Shown: positions 3,010 to 18,199 of the stretch, one piece after another
Numbering within the stretch: the stretch's first letter is position 1
Layout: each line of letters opens with the position of its first letter
The notes under the pieces: generated by a model
What the model saw: only the letters and a program-made list of their open reading frames with translations
Told to the model about the DNA's origin: nothing
Databases searched by the model: none
Program-made: the position numbers and the translations under genes
Source: a virus
IMG/VR virus record: IMGVR_UViG_3300032011_000103
Span: 1-26,939 of that record
DNA length: 26,939 bases
Reading direction: 5' to 3' (one strand)

Positions 3010-6000
3010 ATGGCAGCTATTATACAATTAAGGAGAGGTTCATCCCCTTCATCACTTTCTTATGGTGAAATATATGTAAACGATGACTCGGCATCATTAG
3101 TCCTGAGACTATCAGGTTCTGGCGATATCGTAACGTTAACCAAACTAGAACAGAAAAATCATGGTAATCTTTGGATAGATGGTGATATAACAGCATCTTC
3201 CATATCAGCTAGTGGTGATATTAGAATTGGTGGAGAATTATATCTTGGTGATGAGGTAACTGATAATATTGTTATACAAGGTTCGTTAAGTTCATCTTTA
3301 ATACCACAATCAGATAATCAATTTGATTTAGGTTCAACTACCAAAAAATATAAAGATTTATATGTTGGAACTATACACGCATCAAATACTGTAATTAGTG
3401 GACAGGCAAATATATCTGGTTCTGAACAAATCACTGCGTTTGGATTTATAAGTGGTTCAGATTTAAATTCATTAAATGCATATACATCCTCAAACAATAT
3501 AAGAATAGATGGTATCGATGCCGTTACATCATCTTTCGATACAAGAATTACACAATTAGAAACTGATACAGGTTCACAAGACCAAAGATTAGATAGATTA
3601 GAATTAGAAACTGGTTCTATAAACACTACTAATACTGCACAAAATACTAGATTAACAACATTAGAAACTAAGACAGGTTCTTTAGATACAAACATTACAA
3701 CTATTAATGGTAGGTTAGGTAATGTTGAAACTACTACTGCATCATTTGATAGTAGGTTGGATAATTTAGAATCAAACTCAGGTTCATCTAACACCTTCCA
3801 GGCAGATGCAACGATTCAATTAAATAATATAGAATCAACAACATCTTCATTTGATGGAAGATTAAACAATATAGAATCAACTACGTCATCTTTTGATGGT
3901 AGATTAGATAATTTAGAATCTACTACTGCATCTATTGATGTTAGAATAGGTGGTATTGATACAACAACTGCTTCTTTAGATGGAAGATTAAATGTAGAAG
4001 AAGCAAAAAGTACAACACTTGCAACTGTAACTTCTTCCCTAGATGGTAGATTAGATGTTGAAGAGGCTAAGAGTACAACACTTGCAACTGTAACTTCATC
4101 TTTTGACCAAAGATTAGATAGATTACAACTAGAAACTTCTTCTCTTGATGGTAGATTAGATGTAGAAGAAGGAAAGAGTACAACACTTCAAACAGTAACC
4201 GCATCACTAGAGGGTAGATTAAATAATGTAGAAACTACAACTTCTTCACATGATGATAGATTAAGTAACCTAGAAACAAGTACAGGTTCTTCAGATGTAT
4301 CACTTACAAATGTACATTCATTTACATCCTCATTTAATACTGCAATTACTTTAGATAGTACAAACGTAACAGTATTAGGAAACCTAACAGTTCAAGGTTC
4401 ACAAACACAACTTAATACTCAGACCTTAAATATTGAAGATAAAAACCTATTAATAGCAAGTGGGGCAGCTGATTCAGCGGCAGCTAATGGTGCAGGTATT
4501 ACAATTGATGGTGCCAGTAAATCTTTAATTTGGGACCATGATGATTCAAACTTCTTATTTGATGCAAGAGTAAGTTCATCAGTTGGATTTGTTGGAGATG
4601 GTAGTGCATTGACGGGTGTAACTGCAAATTCAGTTGCATTTAATAGTATAACAAGTAAACCAACTTTATTAAGTGGTTCAAAACAAATAACTGATTTCGG
4701 ATTTATAAGTGGTTCGGATTTAGATAGATTACACTTATATACTGCATCTGCAGATATTAGATTAAGTAACTTAGAAACAACTACTGCATCTTTAGATAGT
4801 AGATTAGATGTAGAAGAAGGTAAAAGTACAACTATTGAAACAGTAACTTCATCTTTTGATGGTAGATTAACAAATATAGAATCTACAACTTCATCATTGG
4901 ATGGTAGATTGGATAATGTAGAATCTACAACTTCTTCATTAGATACTAGATTAACTCGTGAGGAATCGAAAAGTACAACACTTGAAGGTGTAACTTCTTC
5001 ACTAGATTCTAGGTTAGACATTGAAGAAGCAAAAAGTACAACACTTGAAGGTGTAACTTCTTCACTTGATTCAAGATTAGATAATGTAGAAAGTACTACA
5101 TCCTCATTTAGTGGTAGATTAACTAATTTAGAATCAACTACATCATCTTTGGATAGTAGATTGGATAATGTTGAAACTATTACATCTTCATTTGACCAAA
5201 GATTAGGTAGATTACAATTAGAAACTGCTTCAATTGATACTAGAATAGATGGTATTGATACAATAACCGCATCATTTGATAGTAGATTAGACCAAGTAGA
5301 AACATTTACAGGTTCACAAGATAATAAATTTACAAATATACATCTAACAACTCAATCTTTAGATAGTAGATTAGATAACGTAGAAACTACAACTTCTTCA
5401 CTTGTAAGTAGAGTAGACCAATTAACAACATTCACTGGTTCAGTTGGAACTGCTGCGTTCTTCAACGTAACAAGTTCTATTTTCAACGATACAACTGTTG
5501 TACCAACTGCAGCTGCAGTAAACGATGCAATCGTATCTTCTGGTGGTGGTGATGTTACATCGGTTGGTGCAGGTTTAGGTTTAAGTGGAGGTGGTGTAAG
5601 TGGTGATTTAACTTTAGCGTTAAATACTGGTTCATCACACTTTATAAATGCAGTTACTGCCAATGCAGGTGCTACCGATATTTCTTCATTGAATTCATAT
5701 ACTGCATCAAACGATACAACAAATTCAGGTCAAGATACAAGATTGAATCAACTAGCAGCAGCAACTGGTTCATACTTAACTTCACATCCAAGTATAAGTG
5801 CAGGTTCAAATATATCACAAGATAATTCTAATGGTACTGTAATACAAGATTTAACAATTACATTAGATTCTAATGGTCATGTAACTAGTTCAACTGCAAC
5901 AACTGTTGATTTAGATGGAAGATATTATACAGAAACAGAATCAGATACATTGTTTACTAAAAAATTAGGACAAGGTATAATCTCTGGTTCACAACAGGTA

Positions 6001-7758
6001 ATCGATTTTGTTGTAGCTTCTGATTTAGATATGGGAGGAAATAAAGTTCTCTTTGGGAATGTTTATTCTACTGAAGGAGATTTACCAAACGCATCAACTT
6101 ATCATGGTATGTTCGCTCATGTTCATGGAACTGGTAAAGGATATTTTGCACATGGAGGTAATTGGATAAAACTTATAGATGAATCAAGTTCAAGTACTTC
6201 TAACTTATCAGAAGGTTCTAATCTTTATTATACAGATGCAAGAGTAAAAACTAAATTAACTGCTGAAACCGTAATAAGTGGTTCTGGTCAAGTAGTACTA
6301 CAAAGTGCAGATAAGACAGGATTTACAGGTGCTAGTTCTATCACAACTGTTGGTACTATTGGAACTGGTACTTGGCAAGGTACAGTAATTGACAAAACAT
6401 ATTTAGATGATGAGGTTTATAATACATCATTAAATTCATATACTGCATCTAATAATGTTGATATTACAAACTTAGAATCATTTACATCATCTGTTGAAAC
6501 TGCAATTGCATTAGATTCAAGTAATGTAACAATTCTTGGTAACTTAACAGTTCAAGGTTCAACAACTGAACTTGATGTAACTAACCTTAATGTTGCAGAT
6601 AAAAATATTCTAATAGCAAGTGGGGCAGCTGATTCAGCAGCAGCTGATGGTGCTGGTATTACAATTGGTGGTGCCAATGAAACTTTAACATGGGTTCATT
6701 CAGATTCAAGATTCTCATTCTCAGATGATTTGCATGTTGTTGGTAATATAACACTAAGTGGAACAGTAGATGGAATCGATATTTCAGCAATAGATACTGA
6801 TGATGTTTCTGAAGCAACAAATAAGTATTATACAGATGCAAGAGTAAAAACTAAGTTAGATGCAGAAACAGTAGTTAGTGGTTCATCACAAGTATTAGGT
6901 ATTTTAAGTTCATTAAACACCTACACATCTTCTAATGATACAACTAATAACACACAAACAGATAGATTAAATCAATTATCCACAGAAACAGGTTCAATTA
7001 CTACTGAACAAGCTTTACAAGATACTAGATTAAACCAACTTGCAGCTGCAACATCCTCATATTTAACTTCTGTTGATATTTCATCTGATACAAATTTAGC
7101 AGTTTCTGATACTAATGAAGTTAATATGATATTAACTGGAGATACTCTCTCTGCTGAACTAATTGGTGGAGTAGTAAGTGGTTCATCACAAATAACTATC
7201 GGTGGAGATGCAACTGGTAGTGCTAATGATATTAATGTAATTGCTATAAATGGAGTTGCTATTAGTAATGCTGAAGCATCTCAATTGGCAAATATAAATT
7301 CAGTAACAATATCAAATACTCAATGGGGTTACTTAGGTTCATCTAATCAAGGAATTGCAACAAGTGATAATGTACAATTTGCTAAAGTTGGTGTAGGTGG
7401 AGCAAGTGATGCAACATACGAATTAAAAGTAACGGGTGATGTTGGGGCAACGGGAGATATTGTTGCATACATCTCATCTGATAAAAGATTAAAAGATAAC
7501 ATTCAACCAATCGAAGGGGCTTTAGATAAAGTTTCTCAAATAAGTGGTAACACTTTTGATTGGAATGAAGAGAAACAGAATATTTATAAAGGTAAGGATT
7601 ATGGGGTAATTGCTCAAGAAATTCAAGAAGTAATGCCAGAACTTGTAGATACAAGGGATAATGGTTACCTTGCAGTAAAATATGACAAAATTGTTCCTTT
7701 ACTGATTGAATCAATTAAAGAATTGAAAAAAGAAATCGAGGAACTAAAATCTAAATAG
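3010..7758 (+). CDS. Long tail fibre with coiled-coil repeats and S74 chaperone end (1582 aa)
   Basis: The largest protein in the window and probably a trimeric long tail fibre. It opens with the shared basic fibre start (MAAIIQLRRGSS). Residues 175-440 and 580-810 are arrays of 14- and 21-residue units of the form SxDxRLxNxExTTS, fitting a heptad coiled coil. Each array is preceded by a FGFISGSDL segment. Two copies of a NLTVQGS...LIASGAADSAAA module follow. The C-terminus (about 1490-1582) is an S74 intramolecular chaperone domain: SSDKRLKDN at 1489-1497, then DYGVIAQEIQEVMPELV. In that family a Ser and a Lys five residues later drive self-cleavage; here S1490 and K1495 fit. A short Lys/Glu coiled coil ends the protein. 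The next fibre gene starts 12 nt after the stop. Confidence 0.88.
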   Translation: MAAIIQLRRGSSPSSLSYGEIYVNDDSASLVLRLSGSGDIVTLTKLEQKNHGNLWIDGDITASSISASGDIRIGGELYLGDEVTDNIVIQGSLSSSLIPQSDNQFDLGSTTKKYKDLYVGTIHASNTVISGQANISGSEQITAFGFISGSDLNSLNAYTSSNNIRIDGIDAVTSSFDTRITQLETDTGSQDQRLDRLELETGSINTTNTAQNTRLTTLETKTGSLDTNITTINGRLGNVETTTASFDSRLDNLESNSGSSNTFQADATIQLNNIESTTSSFDGRLNNIESTTSSFDGRLDNLESTTASIDVRIGGIDTTTASLDGRLNVEEAKSTTLATVTSSLDGRLDVEEAKSTTLATVTSSFDQRLDRLQLETSSLDGRLDVEEGKSTTLQTVTASLEGRLNNVETTTSSHDDRLSNLETSTGSSDVSLTNVHSFTSSFNTAITLDSTNVTVLGNLTVQGSQTQLNTQTLNIEDKNLLIASGAADSAAANGAGITIDGASKSLIWDHDDSNFLFDARVSSSVGFVGDGSALTGVTANSVAFNSITSKPTLLSGSKQITDFGFISGSDLDRLHLYTASADIRLSNLETTTASLDSRLDVEEGKSTTIETVTSSFDGRLTNIESTTSSLDGRLDNVESTTSSLDTRLTREESKSTTLEGVTSSLDSRLDIEEAKSTTLEGVTSSLDSRLDNVESTTSSFSGRLTNLESTTSSLDSRLDNVETITSSFDQRLGRLQLETASIDTRIDGIDTITASFDSRLDQVETFTGSQDNKFTNIHLTTQSLDSRLDNVETTTSSLVSRVDQLTTFTGSVGTAAFFNVTSSIFNDTTVVPTAAAVNDAIVSSGGGDVTSVGAGLGLSGGGVSGDLTLALNTGSSHFINAVTANAGATDISSLNSYTASNDTTNSGQDTRLNQLAAATGSYLTSHPSISAGSNISQDNSNGTVIQDLTITLDSNGHVTSSTATTVDLDGRYYTETESDTLFTKKLGQGIISGSQQVIDFVVASDLDMGGNKVLFGNVYSTEGDLPNASTYHGMFAHVHGTGKGYFAHGGNWIKLIDESSSSTSNLSEGSNLYYTDARVKTKLTAETVISGSGQVVLQSADKTGFTGASSITTVGTIGTGTWQGTVIDKTYLDDEVYNTSLNSYTASNNVDITNLESFTSSVETAIALDSSNVTILGNLTVQGSTTELDVTNLNVADKNILIASGAADSAAADGAGITIGGANETLTWVHSDSRFSFSDDLHVVGNITLSGTVDGIDISAIDTDDVSEATNKYYTDARVKTKLDAETVVSGSSQVLGILSSLNTYTSSNDTTNNTQTDRLNQLSTETGSITTEQALQDTRLNQLAAATSSYLTSVDISSDTNLAVSDTNEVNMILTGDTLSAELIGGVVSGSSQITIGGDATGSANDINVIAINGVAISNAEASQLANINSVTISNTQWGYLGSSNQGIATSDNVQFAKVGVGGASDATYELKVTGDVGATGDIVAYISSDKRLKDNIQPIEGALDKVSQISGNTFDWNEEKQNIYKGKDYGVIAQEIQEVMPELVDTRDNGYLAVKYDKIVPLLIESIKELKKEIEELKSK
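3532..4329 (+). repeat. Coiled-coil repeat array 1 (16 units of 42 or 63 bp)
   Basis: This encodes residues 175-440 of the long fibre. Ten units are 14 residues and six are 21 residues, and their sum equals the 266 codons exactly. Typical units are SFDGRLDNLESTTA and SLDGRLDVEEAKSTTLATVTS-like. Unit lengths are multiples of seven, as expected for a coiled coil that cannot tolerate a heptad break. Confidence 0.85.
4451..4516 (+). repeat. Duplicated fibre module, copy 1 (copy 2 at 6611-6676)
   Basis: About 65 bp encoding LIASGAADSAAA(N/D)GAGITI is nearly identical at the DNA level to 6611-6676, 2160 bp away. It differs at only a few positions, although the flanking codons have diverged. The match lies inside a longer shared module (NLTVQGS onward). 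Confidence 0.75.
4747..5439 (+). repeat. Coiled-coil repeat array 2 (15 units of 42 or 63 bp)
   Basis: This encodes residues 580-810 of the long fibre. Twelve 14-residue units and three 21-residue units account for all 231 codons. The units are close in sequence to array 1, which indicates block duplication. Confidence 0.85.
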
Positions 7759-7770
7759 AATTTTAGTTAA

Positions 7771-8721
7771 ATGGCACAGACAATAAAATTAAAACGTTCT
7801 TCAACCGAAGGTAAAGTACCCTCTACTTCACAACTTGCCTTAGGCGAAATAGCAATAAACACATACGATGGTAGAATATTCTTTGAAAAGAACGATGGTT
7901 CTGCTACCATACAACATATAGTAACTACCGATTCCATTACAACTGGTTCAATTTCTATTATAGGAAATTTAACAGTAGATGATATTACTATTGATGGTTC
8001 TACAATTTCAGATGCTGGTGATTTTATTTTAGATGTAGGTGGAGATATTACATTAGATGCCGATGATGCAGATGTACTTCTTAAAGATAATGGTATTGAA
8101 TATGGTAGATTTAAAAGAGATAACTCAAATTTCATAATTAAATCATCAACGAATGATAAAGATATTATATTCAGAGGAGTTGATAATACTGTAACCATAG
8201 ATGCCCTTACCTTAGATATGTCTAATGGAGGTTCAGCAACATTCACAGATGATATCGATTTTGGTGGTAAGATTACTCAAACTGGTACAGGTGCTAATAC
8301 ACTTGCAGGTAGATTAGATGTAAATAATACAACTCAATCAACAAGTAAAACGGCTGGGGCATTAGTTGTAGATGGTGGTGTTGGTATAGTAAAAACACTT
8401 AATGTTGGTGAAGATGTTGTTGCATACGCTTCTTCAGATGAAAGATATAAAGATAATGTTACACCAATCGAAAATCCAAACGAAAAACTAAAACAAATCG
8501 GTGGATATACTTTTGATTGGAATAATAAACACGAAGTATTCAAAGGCCAACACGATGTTGGTGTAATTGCACAAGAAATAGAAAAAGTATTACCAGAGAT
8601 TGTAGAAACAAGAGAAAGTGGATATAAAGCGGTAAAATACGAAAAGATAGTAGCCCTACTCATTGAATCAAACAAAGAACTTCTTAAAAGAGTAGAAGAG
8701 TTAGAATCAAAAATCAAATAA
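7771..8721 (+). CDS. Short tail fibre with S74 self-cleaving chaperone (316 aa)
   Basis: The N-terminus (MAQTIKLKRSSTEGK, then LALGEIAINTYDGRIFF) is the classic start of marine T4-like phage fibre proteins and is related to the two fibres upstream. Residues 60-130 are Asp-rich beta repeats (DGSTISDAGDFILDVGGDI). The S74 chaperone runs from about 222 to 316: SSDERYKDN places the presumed nucleophile at S222 and Lys at K227, followed by DVGVIAQEIEKVLPEIVETR and an ALLIESNKELLKRVEELE coiled coil. In this family the chaperone assists trimer folding and is then cut off. The gene lies 12 nt after the long fibre and directly abuts the glycosyltransferase gene (TAA then ATG). Receptor specificity cannot be read from sequence. 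Confidence 0.85.
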   Translation: MAQTIKLKRSSTEGKVPSTSQLALGEIAINTYDGRIFFEKNDGSATIQHIVTTDSITTGSISIIGNLTVDDITIDGSTISDAGDFILDVGGDITLDADDADVLLKDNGIEYGRFKRDNSNFIIKSSTNDKDIIFRGVDNTVTIDALTLDMSNGGSATFTDDIDFGGKITQTGTGANTLAGRLDVNNTTQSTSKTAGALVVDGGVGIVKTLNVGEDVVAYASSDERYKDNVTPIENPNEKLKQIGGYTFDWNNKHEVFKGQHDVGVIAQEIEKVLPEIVETRESGYKAVKYEKIVALLIESNKELLKRVEELESKIK

Positions 8722-9732: not shown

Positions 9733-11031
9733 ATGCCATCATTATCATCAGGAGATACTTTAAGTTTAAAACAATTAGGAACAGCAGTTAGAACAACATC
9801 AACTGGTAGTGGTGTTTCATTAAATGCCATTCAAACAAGTATTGATGCAACATTAGATGGTGTAACAAGACAACTTTCAGATTTTGCTGGAGATTCTGTT
9901 GATGGTATCTCTGGTTTTACATATGTAGTAGAAAATACATCAGAAACATATAGATTAAACTTTAGTGGTACTGGTTCAAGATTTACAGATGGAATAGCAG
10001 ACCAACCCACCAACTTTAAATGGAGTGTACCTGCTGGAAGTAACTTGAGTGTAAGTGAAAACGCTGGTGAAACTGCAGTATTTGCTGCTAGTGAAATGTC
10101 AAACGCGGGAACACAAACTGAATTACAAACAGTTGCAACACACACAGTAAGGGTTGTATTTGATGATACCTTCAACGGTCATATGAGTAACTTTGGTTCT
10201 AATAGAGATAAAACTGTTTATTCTGTTGATTCATATGATAACAACGCATCTGCTTTATGTTTAACTGCTGATTCACCAATCACAAAATGGGATGGTAGTA
10301 TTGTAGAAGTTGGGGATTTAGAAGAAGGAGATGAGTTAGTAGGATATAATCCAAATAACCTAAACCTAGATTCAGATGAAGATTTCTTTGAATGGAATGC
10401 AAGAGATGTACTAGGTGAATTCGAAAAAGTAAAGGTAAAAGATATTATTTATTCATTCGCATCATCATATTATAATATTAATGATGGTGAAATAACTGCA
10501 ACATCTGAACACCCAATGTTAGTTTGGGATAAAGCTGATTCAATTTATAGATTCAAAGAAATGTTTAGATTACAAGTAGGAGATAGATTGATTAAAGCAG
10601 CAGGTGGAATAAAAGATGGTTTAGTTGAGGTAAATGTAGATAAAATTGAAATAGTAAAGGAAAGTGTAGAAATCGTATCAATAAATGTAGAAGAAGTAGA
10701 TACCTATTTAGTAAATGGATATGTAACTCACAACAAAGGTGGTAATTCACATACAGATATAGCCGCACCAAGTGCAGTGACTGGGTTGGCTTATAATAGT
10801 CCAACACTTAGTTGGACAGCTTATAGTGGTGCAACTGCTTATGATTTCCAAGTATCTACCGCAAGTAACTTTAGTAGTACTGAGGCAAATGAAACAGAAT
10901 GGAATCAAAACTCAGCTGAATTGCAACAAGGATATAGTTTGGTTGCTGGTAATACATACTATGCTAGGGTTAGAGCTATAAAAAGTGGATTGGCAGGGGC
11001 TTATTCAAGTACTTTAACATTTACAGCTTAA
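9733..11031 (+). CDS. Structural protein with an embedded Hint (intein-like/BIL) domain and FN3-like end (432 aa)
   Basis: Three parts are visible. Residues 1-175 are a virion-like domain (MPSLSSGDTLSLKQLG...). Residues 176-334 form a Hint fold: C176 followed by LTADSPITKWDG and GDLEEGDELVGY (block A), T257-SEH260 (block B, TxxH), and VDTYLVNGYVTHN ending at H333-N334 (blocks F/G). At 159 residues it has no room for a homing endonuclease. The residue after HN is K335, not Cys, Ser or Thr, so standard intein splicing is not expected. This pattern fits bacterial intein-like (A-type BIL) domains, which cleave or ligate ends. Residues about 345-432 resemble a fibronectin type III domain (PSAVTGLAY...PTLSWTAYSGATAYDFQV). 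The protein is probably processed and may expose or shed the FN3 part. It belongs to the tail appendage cluster. Confidence 0.75.
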   Translation: MPSLSSGDTLSLKQLGTAVRTTSTGSGVSLNAIQTSIDATLDGVTRQLSDFAGDSVDGISGFTYVVENTSETYRLNFSGTGSRFTDGIADQPTNFKWSVPAGSNLSVSENAGETAVFAASEMSNAGTQTELQTVATHTVRVVFDDTFNGHMSNFGSNRDKTVYSVDSYDNNASALCLTADSPITKWDGSIVEVGDLEEGDELVGYNPNNLNLDSDEDFFEWNARDVLGEFEKVKVKDIIYSFASSYYNINDGEITATSEHPMLVWDKADSIYRFKEMFRLQVGDRLIKAAGGIKDGLVEVNVDKIEIVKESVEIVSINVEEVDTYLVNGYVTHNKGGNSHTDIAAPSAVTGLAYNSPTLSWTAYSGATAYDFQVSTASNFSSTEANETEWNQNSAELQQGYSLVAGNTYYARVRAIKSGLAGAYSSTLTFTA

Positions 11032-13839: not shown

Positions 13840-14328
13840 ATGGCAGAAGTATTAGAATTTAACGATATGTTTTATACCAACTTCGAACCGAAGATGAAAA
13901 ATAGATTCATCATGGAAATCGATGGTATCCCTTCATATCTTATCAAAACAGCTAACAGACCTTCAATTCAGTTTGAGGTTGTAACTCTTGACCACATTAA
14001 CGTTAAGAGAAAACTTAAAGGAAAAGGTGAGTGGCAAGATGTAGAAATAACATTATATGACCCAATTGTACCAAGTGGTGCACAATCTGTAATGGAATGG
14101 GTAAGAACATCTCACGAATCCCTAACAGGTAGAGATGGATATGCTGATTTCTACAAAAAAGATATCAACTTTTATATGTTAGGACCTGTTGGTGATAAGA
14201 TTGAACAATGGACTCTAAAAGGTGCATTTATCAACAACGCAGTGTTTAATGATGTTGACTGGAGTTCAAATGACCCGGCTGAAATCTCACTAACACTATC
14301 TTATGATTACGCAATCCTAGAATTCTAA
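13840..14328 (+). CDS. Tail tube protein (gp19-like, 162 aa)
   Basis: The protein stacks in hexameric rings to form the inner tail tube. Length (162) is almost that of T4 gp19 (163). The N-terminal NRFIMEIDGIPSYLIKTANR (residues 21-40) and the pattern of beta strands through VKRKLKGKGEWQDVEITLYDP, ending LTLSYDYAILEF, fit the T4_gp19 tube family. It lies directly after the sheath gene and is closed by a strong terminator, which should help it reach high stoichiometry. The AGGAG at the usual distance makes the start secure. Confidence 0.93.
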   Translation: MAEVLEFNDMFYTNFEPKMKNRFIMEIDGIPSYLIKTANRPSIQFEVVTLDHINVKRKLKGKGEWQDVEITLYDPIVPSGAQSVMEWVRTSHESLTGRDGYADFYKKDINFYMLGPVGDKIEQWTLKGAFINNAVFNDVDWSSNDPAEISLTLSYDYAILEF

Positions 14329-14440: not shown

Positions 14441-15208
14441 ATGGCAAAATACGAATTTCCAACAGAGGTTATTGAACTCCCATCTAAAGGGAAAGTTTAT
14501 CCTCAAGACAACCCATTATCAAAGGGTAGAGTAGAAATCAAGTATATGACTGCTAAAGAGGAGGATATACTTGCTTCACAAAATTTGATAAGAAAGGGGG
14601 TGGTGCTCGATAAGTTGTTTGAATCAGTAGTTGTTGATAAGGATATTGATATTAATGATATTGTAGTAGGTGATAAGAATGCAATTCTTCTCGCTACTCG
14701 TATTCTTGGATATGGTGCTGAATATAAAGTAGAAATTACTGACCCATTTACAGGCGAACAACAACCAACTACAATAGATTTATCTAAAATTCAAACAAAA
14801 GAAGTAGATGAATCAATACTAACTTCAAGTAATTTGTACGAATTCGAGTTACCAAAAGCAAAAAAGAAAATTAAGTTTAAATTACTTACACATAAAGATG
14901 AAACTGATATCAATGCAGAAATTGCTGCATTACAAAGATTACAAAAAGGAAAATCAGACGTAAGTAATGATGTTACAACTAGATTAAAATATATGATACA
15001 AGAGGTTGATGGGAATCAAGATAGAGGATTCATCAATACATTTGTACTAAATGGCTTATTGGCTTTGGATACAAGGGCATTACGAGCTTATGTTAAACAA
15101 TTAAGTCCAGATATGGACATGAAGTTCAATTTCGTATCGAACATCACGGGTGAAGAGGAGGCTCTCGATATCCCCTTTGGGGTATCGTTTTTTTACCCTT
15201 CCGAATGA
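14441..15208 (+). CDS. gp26-like baseplate/tail-assembly protein (255 aa)
   Basis: It resembles the T4_baseplate family (T4 gp26): IELPSKGKVYP at about 11-21, then IKYMTAKEEDILASQNLIRKG and VGDKNAILLATRILGYG, are its hallmark segments. In T4 the gene is assigned to hub assembly. Here it lies between tube and tape measure, the place held in many tailed phages by the tail-assembly chaperone pair, so a chaperone role on the tape measure is a fair inference. The last 59 nt overlap a second reading frame (15150-15410). A hairpin plus seven T residues lies inside the overlap, 12 nt before this gene's TGA, so a fraction of product may be extended by frameshift. No Shine-Dalgarno is visible before the ATG. 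Confidence 0.78.
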   Translation: MAKYEFPTEVIELPSKGKVYPQDNPLSKGRVEIKYMTAKEEDILASQNLIRKGVVLDKLFESVVVDKDIDINDIVVGDKNAILLATRILGYGAEYKVEITDPFTGEQQPTTIDLSKIQTKEVDESILTSSNLYEFELPKAKKKIKFKLLTHKDETDINAEIAALQRLQKGKSDVSNDVTTRLKYMIQEVDGNQDRGFINTFVLNGLLALDTRALRAYVKQLSPDMDMKFNFVSNITGEEEALDIPFGVSFFYPSE

Positions 15209-15410
15209 CTATAGTATCCAGCTCCATGGTCAAATATGGGAGATGGTTAACTATGGTAATGGGTTTACTTGGAATGATGTTTACTTCATGCCTATCCATT
15301 GGAGAAGGTTCTACTTCAAGAAATTAGTAGATGCCAAGAAAAAGGAAAAAGAAGAATACGAAAAATCCTCTAAGAAATCAAGAGGACCAAATGTAAGAGT
15401 GAGGAAGTAA
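15150..15410 (+). CDS. gp51-like overlapping frame, possibly translated by frameshift (up to 86 aa)
   Basis: This frame is +1 relative to the gp26-like gene. Its conserved-looking content is FFTLPNDYSIQLHGQIWEMV, then GFTWNDVYFMPIHWRRFYFKKL and a basic tail; it resembles the short gp51-like partner found after gp26 in T4-type phages. No ATG precedes this content: the frame opens after TGA at 15120-15122 and offers only GTG 15150 or TTG 15177. The first ATG (15243) would drop the FFTLPNDY segment. A GAGGAGG sequence (15155-15161) could serve internal initiation. Alternatively a +1 slip on the T-run (UUU re-pairs with UUU) would give a fusion of about 322 residues. The 3' end overlaps the terminator. 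Confidence 0.65.
   Translation: MKRRLSISPLGYRFFTLPNDYSIQLHGQIWEMVNYGNGFTWNDVYFMPIHWRRFYFKKLVDAKKKEKEEYEKSSKKSRGPNVRVRK
15166..15194 (+). promoter_or_regulatory. Intragenic hairpin followed by seven T: slippage, frameshift or attenuator site
   Basis: Arms 15166-15175 and 15179-15187 give 9 pairs with one bulged T (15171) and a TTT loop. Four G-C pairs close the loop. Seven T follow at 15188-15194 with no gap, all inside the overlap of the gp26-like and gp51-like frames. The shape is that of an intrinsic terminator. Its position inside two coding frames suggests partial termination or reading-frame change. Confidence 0.6.
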
Positions 15411-15427
15411 ATTTCCTCACTTTTTTT
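15398..15427 (+). terminator. Intrinsic terminator overlapping the gp51-like stop codon
   Basis: Arms 15398-15406 (AGTGAGGAA) and 15413-15421 pair perfectly over 9 bp around a 6-nt loop; T-run 15421-15427. The TAA stop (15408-15410) lies in the loop. Confidence 0.9.
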
Positions 15428-15688: not shown

Positions 15689-18199
15689 ATGGCTGACGAA
15701 AGAAGTAGATTAGAGTTCCTAAAACAAATAGAGAACGCAGAGGCACGAATCAAACGTGCAAAAGATTCTACTGTCTTAAGCCAAATAAAAATAAATAAAT
15801 ACATTGATGAACAGAAGGCAAAAATAGTTGCCCTGGCAAAAGAGTTAAAGAAAGCTAATCAAGATACTCTTAACGAATATTCTAGTATGGAACAAAGTAT
15901 AGGTTCTATATCAGGTGCGTATGGTAAACTTAGAGATAATCAAAAAGCAGCATTAGATTTAGCAGCAGGTGATGATAGGTTTACTGGTAAAAAATTACAA
16001 TCACTACAAAAAGTTCAAGATTACAATCAACAAATATCTCAATTAGGAAGAGATGATATTCATCAAAAAGCAGCATTGTTGAGTATGCGTGATGAAGAAA
16101 TGGCTAAGATTGGTGAAGGTATTCATGGTAATACTAAAATCTTACAAACTCTTAAAGACCAAAATTCATTAGCAGAAGATTATTCTAACCTCACCGATTT
16201 CCAAAAATCACAAATGGAAAATACCCATAAGGTATTAGAAGGTATAAAGGGTAGTATAAGTGGAGTATTGGATGTATTCAGTACACTTACATCAGGCCCA
16301 TTGGGTATGTTAGGTACTGGTCTTATTGGAGCTGGATTTGCAATTGAGGCATTAGGAAAATCTGCTAAACAACTAGGAACATTCTTTACAGAATCTACAA
16401 TGTCCGCAACAGTATTAGGACTTGTATTTGAAGATGCATTGGAAGTTGCCAAAGGATTGGCAAATGAAATGGGTGGTGTTGAAAATGCAACATTTGGTGC
16501 TCAACTTAAAACAAATTTACTAGCAACCAACTTAGGAATAGGTGGTGGTGAAGCAGCAAAATTAGTTGGAACATTTGCTAGATTAGGTGATGGAACAGCA
16601 GCCGCAGGTGCTGATATGTTATCACTTGTTAAATCTGCATCGATTGCAAATGGTGTAATTCCTGCTGCAGTTGCGGGAGATTTAGCAGCAAATACTGAAA
16701 AGTTTGCTGAGTATGGTAAAGATGGTGGAAAGAATATGGTTGAAGCTGCAATTGCGGCTAAGAAACTCGGTTTAGAAATGTCATCATTAACAAACGTTAC
16801 TGATGGATTATTAGATATAGAAAACTCCCTAACATCAGAGCTCGAATTAGGAGCAATGTTAGGTAAAAATATTAACTTCGAAGCAGCAAGAAGATTAGCA
16901 TATGAAGGAGAGATAGGTTCAGCAGTTAAATCAGCAATAGAACAATTAGGTGGTGTTGAAGAATTTAACAAAATGGATATCTATCAGAAGAGAGAAGCTG
17001 CAAAGGCCTTAGGTGTTTCAGTAGAAGAACTTCAGAAGATGACATCCAATATGGATAAGTTAAACGCTGATGGTTCTATACAACAATCTCAGTTTGATAT
17101 GATGAAAGAATCATTATCTGCAATTGCCAAAGGACCATTAGGTAATATGGTAAAAGGATTAGGTTCAGCTGCAGTTGCGGCTGGTCAAATGGGATTCAAT
17201 GTTGCCGGAACTGCCAAACAACTTAAAAATAAGGTATTTGAAAAAGTAGGTTCACTATTTGGTGGTGGAGCACCTGCTTCTGGTAAAACACCATCTGTTG
17301 CAAAAACCCCAAAAGTTCCAAAAGGTGGTGGAGATGCAATCGGTGGAAAAGGAAGTATAACACAATCACTTGGTAAAATAAACATGAGTGCGGTACTAAA
17401 AGGAGCAGCGGCTTTATTAATAGTTGCAGCTGCAGTATTCGTGTTTGGTAAAGCAGTTCAAGAATTTATGAAAGTTAGTTGGAGTGCGGTTGGAATGGCG
17501 GTAGTATCTATGTTGGCTCTAGTTGGTTCAGTTGCTTTATTAGGTGCTATTATGAGTAGTGGAGTTGGAGCAGTTGCAATTCTTGCAGGTGCAGCCGCTA
17601 TGTTGATTGTTGCTGGGGCTATGTTTGTTCTCGGAAAAGCAATACAAGAAATAGCAAAAGGAGCTGGTGTTGATTTCGCAACACTTGGTACTCAGTTATT
17701 GGCATTTGGATTGGCAGTTGTACCTCTTGGATTAATGGCTCTTCCAATATTCTTTGCATCGGCGGCATTAACTACACTAGGTATTGGTTTAACTGCATTT
17801 GGTATAGGATTACGAATGATACCATTTGAAACCTTAAACTTAGTAAAAGATACACTTACTAATATAGTACCACTAACGAGTGGAATAATATCACTTGCAG
17901 CAGGAATCACCGCATTGGCTGGTTCACTTTCATTATTAGGAATAGCTGGAATTGCTGCTTTACCTGGTCTGATGGCCTTATCAATGGTAGGTGGTATTAG
18001 TATGGCCTTAGGTGGATTGTTCGGTGGTGGTGAAAGTGAAGGTGGAGGTGATTCAATGGAAGCCTTACTCACAGAGATTCAAGGATTAAGAGCAGATTTA
18101 AATGCTGGTAAAGTTGCAGTTTACATGGATGGAACAAAGGTTTCGAGTGGAATTAAAAACGTAGTTAATGGAACAAAAGTTAACTCATATGGATTATAA
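15689..18199 (+). CDS. Tail tape measure protein (836 aa)
   Basis: It sets tail length and occupies the tube lumen. Residues 1-180 are charged helical coiled coil. Residues 190-480 are Ala/Gly-rich helices (e.g. GPLGMLGTGLIGAGFAIEALGKSAKQLG). A Gly/Pro/Lys linker follows at about 520-555. A strongly hydrophobic stretch from 568 to about 790 has several membrane-type segments (AALLIVAAAVFVFGKAV and similar), as in tape measures thought to form a channel in the host membrane. The C-terminus is GKVAVYMDGTKVSSGI, a common tape-measure ending. At roughly 1.5 Å per residue, the usual rule, the tail would be about 125 nm. GGAG lies just before the ATG. Position after the gp26/51-like pair and before baseplate genes agrees. 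Confidence 0.88.
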   Translation: MADERSRLEFLKQIENAEARIKRAKDSTVLSQIKINKYIDEQKAKIVALAKELKKANQDTLNEYSSMEQSIGSISGAYGKLRDNQKAALDLAAGDDRFTGKKLQSLQKVQDYNQQISQLGRDDIHQKAALLSMRDEEMAKIGEGIHGNTKILQTLKDQNSLAEDYSNLTDFQKSQMENTHKVLEGIKGSISGVLDVFSTLTSGPLGMLGTGLIGAGFAIEALGKSAKQLGTFFTESTMSATVLGLVFEDALEVAKGLANEMGGVENATFGAQLKTNLLATNLGIGGGEAAKLVGTFARLGDGTAAAGADMLSLVKSASIANGVIPAAVAGDLAANTEKFAEYGKDGGKNMVEAAIAAKKLGLEMSSLTNVTDGLLDIENSLTSELELGAMLGKNINFEAARRLAYEGEIGSAVKSAIEQLGGVEEFNKMDIYQKREAAKALGVSVEELQKMTSNMDKLNADGSIQQSQFDMMKESLSAIAKGPLGNMVKGLGSAAVAAGQMGFNVAGTAKQLKNKVFEKVGSLFGGGAPASGKTPSVAKTPKVPKGGGDAIGGKGSITQSLGKINMSAVLKGAAALLIVAAAVFVFGKAVQEFMKVSWSAVGMAVVSMLALVGSVALLGAIMSSGVGAVAILAGAAAMLIVAGAMFVLGKAIQEIAKGAGVDFATLGTQLLAFGLAVVPLGLMALPIFFASAALTTLGIGLTAFGIGLRMIPFETLNLVKDTLTNIVPLTSGIISLAAGITALAGSLSLLGIAGIAALPGLMALSMVGGISMALGGLFGGGESEGGGDSMEALLTEIQGLRADLNAGKVAVYMDGTKVSSGIKNVVNGTKVNSYGL

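Follow-up and report, generated by a model that had tools for sequence, protein, structure and literature searches.

A candidate +1 ribosomal frameshift signal beside a hairpin in a probable tail assembly chaperone gene of a contractile-tailed virus

The window analysed here is the whole of a 26,939-base IMG/VR virus record (IMGVR_UViG_3300032011_000103), which holds a contractile-tail cluster with the gene order tail tube, gp26-like open reading frame (ORF), +1-frame ORF, small ORF and 836-aa ORF; Microcystis phage Mel-JY01 and Flavobacterium phage immuto have a gene order of the same kind. The gp26-like ORF (14441-15208, plus strand, as are the other parts of the locus) encodes 255 aa, matches PF12322 (E 5.1e-9) and phrog_150 (E 6.2e-13, positions 9-232) and probably represents the short form of a tail assembly chaperone (TAC-N, 'G'). 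Its protein ends in ...IPFGVSFFYPSE*, and within the last codons lie a hairpin, CGATATCCCC-TTT-GGGGTATCG (15166-15187), and a run of seven Ts, TTT TTT T (T7, 15188-15194), followed by the zero-frame stop TGA of the short form at 15206-15208. The hairpin runs directly into T7 inside the coding overlap, as a first-pass annotation of the window had described. From 15195 to 15410 the +1 frame is open for 71 aa plus stop (TAC-C, 'T' domain), and reading with a one-base skip at T7 gives a 322-residue fusion, matching the earlier estimate of about 322 residues. We propose that programmed +1 ribosomal frameshifting takes place at the overlap and that the gene codes for a tail assembly chaperone, a reading to which sequence comparison lends a probability of roughly 0.7.

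The comparison is based on the window and 80 IMG/VR relatives (81 sequences), the latter being the best 80 of a larger number of loci in a protein scan, at 48-74% identity. Once sequences sharing 90% identity or more and ORFs truncated by a contig end had been set aside, 59 of the 81 remained as a non-redundant set. In-frame TTT TTT T is present in 80/81 sequences, the exception (L012) having TTC TTT T, and the end of the slip word lies 11, 14 or 17 nucleotides (nt) from the zero-frame stop in 80/81, L031 ending before its stop. Elsewhere in these genes 77% of Phe codons are TTT, and both slip codons are TTT in 58 of the 59 non-redundant loci (P ~1.6e-12, relatedness ignored). A T directly before T7 is found in 0/59 loci against 28.9 expected from codon usage (P 4e-21, relatedness likewise ignored), and a Gly codon in that place is GGG in 17/20 cases, a codon that accounts for only 10% of Gly codons. 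Such a preceding T would turn T7 into the -1 heptamer U UUU UUU. In wider samples T precedes the slip word in 0/88 deduplicated T7 loci and in 0/31 loci with TTTC[TA]T (15.2 expected), compared with 5/10 loci with TTCTTTT. By these comparative tests a slip word that permits P-site re-pairing one base forward has been kept beyond coding need, consistent with the proposal that T7 is where a P-site Phe-tRNA slips.

More distant relatives were obtained with immuto (L083) and an uncultured 484-kb phage (L088) as queries, which returned 80 and 20 further loci. Of these, 98 were examined (L170-L249 and L251-L268; L269 and L270 are too short), and L192 breaks off before the site; L192, L269, L270 and L288 are all cut by contig ends. 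The words at the 97 readable loci are TTT TTT TGG (42), TTT CTT TGG (34), TTC TTT TGG (14), TTT CTA TGG (4) and one each of TTT CTT TAC, TTC TTG TAT and TTC CTT TGG. These relatives keep the +1 ORF, and all words other than two decayed ones still permit P-site re-pairing. Among isolates, Mel-JY01 has T7 and a +1 ORF annotated as an overlapping hypothetical gene, immuto (L083, 5713-5955) has the TTT CTT TGG word and an 80-residue +1 extension, and the phage labelled Streptococcus GXN1 has TTC TTT CGT and a +1 ORF. A genome scan added at least eight loci in metagenome-assembled genomes (MAGs), of which seven are readable, all with a +1 ORF (T7 in six, T8 in one), and 5/7 bear Bacteroidota names. 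The same words bear on a -2 ribosomal shift, which would enter the same frame with one more Phe. The T7 run allows it and phage Mu uses -2 shifting (PMC5009743), but it is scarcely credible here, as the TTCTTTT and TTTCTAT relatives, judged from their words, lack good -2 re-pairing.

The extension itself is well conserved. The +1 ORF is closed in 76/81 sequences, 64-94 residues past the slip, and the other 5 run off their contigs; its Y, P and R columns are invariant in 59/59. A family search with the T domain returned one weak PHROG and three weak Pfam matches, each in 1/30 members, and a sequence search of solved structures returned none up to E 1. Were the downstream domain a separate small protein, it could be initiated independently at GTG 15150 or TTG 15177 of the window's +1 ORF, both of which exist, or by coupling. 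The earlier remark that the +1 frame has no ATG before its start holds, its first ATG lying 16 codons after T7. A separate start also has a counterpart in cyanophages, where an ATG lies 2 nt after the stop in 80/80 loci, and in L261 and L266, which carry an ATG. However, 29/59 relatives have no ATG, GTG or TTG before +1 codon 10 (46/59 no ATG), six lack even CTG, ATT, ATC or ATA there, and independent initiation leaves both T7 and the missing preceding T unexplained, which makes it very unlikely. In 32/59 the +1 frame has a stop no more than 5 codons ahead of the end of T7. Of the features whose conservation among homologues had been put forward as a check, the T-run is thus kept (80/81) and the hairpin is kept as structure, while an ATG before +1 codon 10 is missing in 46/59.

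The hairpin was judged on the relatives rather than on the window. In the window its stem has 9 pairs with a bulged T, as annotated, of which 6 are G-C and not four; an alternative pairing has 5 G-C pairs and a loop of 4. The 86-nt window stretch taken alone has ordinary fold stability (z -0.97), and the idea of the hairpin as a peculiarity of the window was dropped after the fold tests on relatives. Over the 59 relatives the 30 nt before T7 have a mean minimum free energy (MFE) of -7.3 against -4.4 in synonymous-codon shuffles (mean z -1.52; p<0.05 in 23/59), where control blocks give mean z of -0.28 and +0.03. Against composition shuffles the same 30 nt give mean z -1.50, with 29/59 below -1.64; the mean z of four further blocks ranges from -0.31 to -0.49 (7 to 13/59 below -1.64). 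The P values of the hairpin are too small because the tests treat loci as independent, and the contrasts with control blocks are the fairer measure. In 52/59 loci the MFE fold predicted for the 33 nt upstream of the slip word leaves a gap of 0-4 nt to it. Stems vary in sequence and register between relatives, so the hairpin is kept as a structure and not as a sequence; a duplex beside the E site is present in near relatives and less regular in immuto-type loci. On the 3' side, the 60 nt after the site fold better than other windows in the same genes (mean z -1.24); a downstream stimulatory structure was not established, a 30-nt block 16 nt after the first T reaching a z of only -0.31 in composition shuffles.

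Further upstream lies an internal Shine-Dalgarno-like word and possible stimulator, GGAGG (15157-15161), which ends 26 nt before T7. A GGAGG at this distance is found in 30/59 loci, where codon usage for the encoded amino acids would predict 0.9. Across the folded hairpin, 1-12 unpaired nt separate it from the slip word over the 30 loci; that folding brings GGAGG near the slip word is a suggestion, because the geometry varies.

A hairpin followed by a T-run is also what stem-loop-mediated transcriptional slippage would use: the polymerase would drop one U at T7, and the resulting U6 mRNA would encode the fusion. One-base loss beside a stem-loop is documented (PMC5009743), and in the near relatives the 0-4 nt spacing of hairpin and T7, the conservation of the first TTT and the strength of the hairpin all suit it, the hairpin exceeding codon controls in both T7 groups (z -1.52 and -1.54) and hardly in TTTC[TA]T loci (-0.36). 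Within the T7 loci it accounts for run and hairpin equally well. It does not account for the other words: a slippable homopolymer is kept within T7 loci alone, and TTTCTTT, TTTCTAT and TTCTTTT would realign with mismatches or over only four Ts, yet the +1 ORF is kept. The uncultured 484-kb phage (L088) has a 7-bp hairpin ahead of TTTCTATTC, and the cyanophage branch has a ribosomal -1 heptamer in the corresponding place. Loss of one U, which the first-pass annotation had offered beside ribosomal slippage, is therefore unlikely as the explanation of the locus, although some contribution by the polymerase in T7 phages is possible because the hairpin of TTTC[TA]T loci is no better than codon usage. 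The annotation had also raised a partial intrinsic terminator or attenuator that tunes the transcript ratio. The window's hairpin and T-run do fit a terminator consensus, but some relatives have dispensed with the run and still have the +1 ORF, and the window has a second terminator-like site at the end of that ORF (15395-15424), so that such a main role appears highly improbable.

Ribosomal +1 slippage is favoured because relatives keep the +1 ORF with TTTCTTT, TTTCTAT or TTCTTTT. It explains the words UUU_U, CUU_U and UUU_C, the absence of a preceding T at T7 and TTTC[TA]T, unlike TTCTTTT, and the adjoining hairpin, because a hairpin juxtaposed upstream of a shift site stimulates +1 shifting, on 70S ribosomes included (PMC6321510). 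In the proposed mechanism most ribosomes would read TTT TTT TAC CCT TCC GAA TGA, which yields the short chaperone of 255 aa. A minority would slip one base forward with the Phe-tRNA on UUU, where the next base is U and UUU_U re-pairs as UUU, and would continue with ACC CTT CCG... to give a long form of 322 aa that has an additional domain at its C-terminus. The forward slip would be stimulated by the hairpin re-forming directly upstream beside the E site, would be aided by a weak UUU codon in the E site and, in about half of the near relatives, would also be stimulated by the internal GGAGG. Slippage itself, its rate and the effects of these stimulators we infer from the comparison. Conservation across relatives nonetheless supports the earlier view of the overlap as a probable recoding site that fuses both ORFs.

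Several observations weigh against a +1 ribosomal shift or against parts of its mechanism. In the zero frame the A site holds UGG or UAC, neither of them a stop codon or an obvious case of starvation. The first TTT is kept, which slippage at the second codon would not by itself require; we explain its conservation by a weak E-site codon or by slippage that can take place on either codon. The hairpin of the TTTC[TA]T relatives is about at codon-usage level (mean z -0.36, n 31), TTCTTTT loci have a mean z of -1.24 yet reach p<0.05 in 0/9, and GXN1 (L084) has no predicted hairpin. In the distant relatives the fold ends at most 4 nt from the word in only 11/21 distinct TTTCTTT stretches and 16/23 distinct T7 stretches. 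GGAGG is of doubtful use if the hosts are Bacteroidota, and the T8 locus among the MAGs (L284; TTT TTT TTC) includes the -1 heptamer. In L261 and L266 a similar domain lies in a different frame and has an ATG, and the slip words are decayed. Among the 98 distant loci they alone are homologues of the kind held to contradict a fused product, with a separate ATG and no T-run. From their sequences this reads as a natural loss of the frameshift arrangement, in which the slip word was lost along with the frame relation.

A second branch of the family appears to shift in the opposite direction. Cyanophage-type loci (L090-L169, the best 80 of a longer list) have NNT TTT TTC, the canonical -1 heptamer, just before the stop in 80/80, and the homologous domain lies in the -1 frame. 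In 67/80 a GGAGG precedes the TTT codon, ending 11 nt upstream of it. Both a fusion and a separate C-terminal product are possible in cyanophages because the -1 heptamer and the ATG after the stop coexist. Rhizobium phage IC12 (L087) and a 595-kb phage (L089) likewise have T TTT TTC with an open -1 frame. The layout fits an earlier remark on the short cyanophage 'gp51', described in PMC3037559 as having no counterpart of the first ~200 residues and as being ~20% of the length of other gp51 proteins.

The two branches can be related to T4 gp26 and gp51. PF12322 and phrog_150 are common to the window protein, T4 gp26 and T4 gp51. T4 gp26 matches phrog_150 at positions 14-235 and gp51 at 13-280, and the cyanophage gp26 and the small cyanophage protein cover 5-232 and 241-278; from these ranges gp51 would be equivalent to the short form with the extension attached, and gp26 to the short form by itself. 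In profile comparisons with 10 gp51 rows, the cyanophage fusion matches gp51 at E 1.4e-12 and the cyanophage extension matches the gp51 C-terminus at 2.4e-8; extension profiles link the window to immuto (E 7.5e-32) and immuto to the cyanophages (3.9e-5). Direct comparison with the gp51 C-terminus is weak for the window (E 0.23) and for immuto (0.044). A direct match to gp51 was rejected for the window C-terminal domain and for the whole fusion (E 0.23 and 0.22), as it was with a broken gp51 row, L279, included (11 rows; E 0.4 and 0.23). The window's C-terminal domain is thus tied to gp51 through intermediates only, and the label 'gp51-like' given earlier to the downstream ORF probably suits the gp51 C-terminal domain and not the whole of gp51. 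L279, left out of the structure alignment and of the 10-row comparison, is a T4-like gp51 gene with an internal frame break around 2360, either a sequencing error or real.

The AlphaFold2 (AF2) model of the short form has a mean predicted local distance difference test (pLDDT) score of 91.3, and its best two matches among 942 chains, both with low Z, are 3klu YqbN (Z 5.1, 82 aligned, 3.6 Å) and 2ob9, the HK97 tail assembly chaperone (Z 4.8, 91 aligned, 4.7 Å). YqbN we take to be a member of the XkdN-like chaperone group. Named BFVD matches of the short-form model include T4-type 'baseplate hub' proteins, and no tail chaperone is among the matches listed for the gp51 model (812 chains aligned; best C1QBP, Z 4.7). 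A G/GT-like role is supported by position, homology, two-product design and the structure matches, and the comparison thus supports the earlier suggestion that the pair are tail assembly chaperones TAC-N and TAC-NC like lambda G/GT; the roles of the two products we likewise infer. The further suggestion that gp26/gp51 of T4 hides a chaperone pair seems correct, though it has probably been made before. By its title, a 2022 paper in Virology by Vladimirov, Gautam and Davidson reportedly identifies the chaperone genes of T4-like phages, with a mechanism other than frameshifting. The claim to novelty was dropped on account of this paper, which PMC12846349 cites for poly-T -1 signals in T4-like phages.

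Around the locus, the upstream neighbour is the T4 gp19-like tail tube protein (13840-14328, plus strand; PF06841 E 6.5e-9, phrog_4542 E 2.2e-30). A terminator-like hairpin on both strands lies at the end of the +1 ORF (15395-15424) and is followed by a 69-aa ORF and the 836-aa ORF (15689-18199, plus strand). The latter is a tape measure protein by position; no Pfam or PHROG family matches it convincingly (best E 0.013 and 0.02), and the large ORF in the matching place of immuto is annotated as tail tape measure protein. Elsewhere in the window, 9733-11031 holds a 432-aa ORF with the stretch CLTADSPITKWDGSIVEVGDLEEGDEL...YLVNGYVTHN, presumably intein/Hint-like. A long repeat-rich ORF (3010-7758) has many 'TTSSLDGRLDNVE'-like repeats and is followed by an ORF at 7771-8721; the ends of both resemble what we take to be a self-cleaving S74 intramolecular chaperone domain.

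A more general proposal, for which we consider the odds about even, is that many contractile-tailed phages carry a compact +1 cassette (often GGAGG, then hairpin and TTT TTT T) that acts at a sense codon with the hairpin as main stimulator, and that the corresponding Phe-Phe site has switched direction in evolution, the word NNV TTT TTT T serving a +1 shift here and NNT TTT TTC a -1 shift in cyanophages, with two genes and no shift in T4. The locus itself is a candidate natural +1 site, conserved and preceded by a hairpin. It also allows the immuto annotation to be re-read: a hypothetical protein annotated from an internal ATG, covering only the last 36/80 extension residues, would be the last part of the +1 extension.

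Frameshifting in this position is familiar from other phages, and the forward-shifting version with a 5' hairpin appears new; the literature searched held no +1 site in this chaperone family, which is weak evidence of absence as subscription papers were mostly outside reach. In lambda, gpG and gpGT arise by a -1 frameshift and neither is in virions (PMC5009743); here the shift would be +1, with the hairpin upstream of the slip word. The TAC locus of Vandenendeviridae and Andersonviridae shifts -1 at GTTTTT (PMC12846349) and is alike in layout, with a poly-T slip word at the TAC-N 3' end before the tape measure gene. The tail chaperone of the haloarchaeal myovirus HSTV-2 very likely shifts +1, in the direction proposed here (PMC5009743). 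A parallel in mechanism is prfB (RF2), whose +1 site CUUUGA with internal Shine-Dalgarno (SD) word involves the kind of one-base-forward P-site re-pairing proposed here (PMC6321510). Both have an upstream duplex beside the E site and immuto-type relatives have CTT_T, whereas the sites described here lack a stop codon in the A site and carry a hairpin, either in place of the SD or in addition to it.

Influenza PA-X likewise has a known shift site. Stem-loop-mediated transcriptional slippage in Roseiflexus IS630 was reportedly described by Penno in 2015. There too a hairpin adjoins a T-containing slip word and one base is lost (PMC5009743), but the relatives studied here do not keep a slippable homopolymer. 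The T4-like chaperones presumably belong to the same protein family, through PF12322 and phrog_150, but T4 itself has two separate genes, divergently transcribed and non-overlapping, and not a single gene that would be read with a shift. An account from 2016 treats frameshifting in tail chaperone genes as widely conserved among long-tailed phages, 'except T4' (PMC5009743). Relatives of the T4-type module in environmental phages seem to employ it with shifts of either sign, a point of interest for the origin of the two-gene arrangement in T4.
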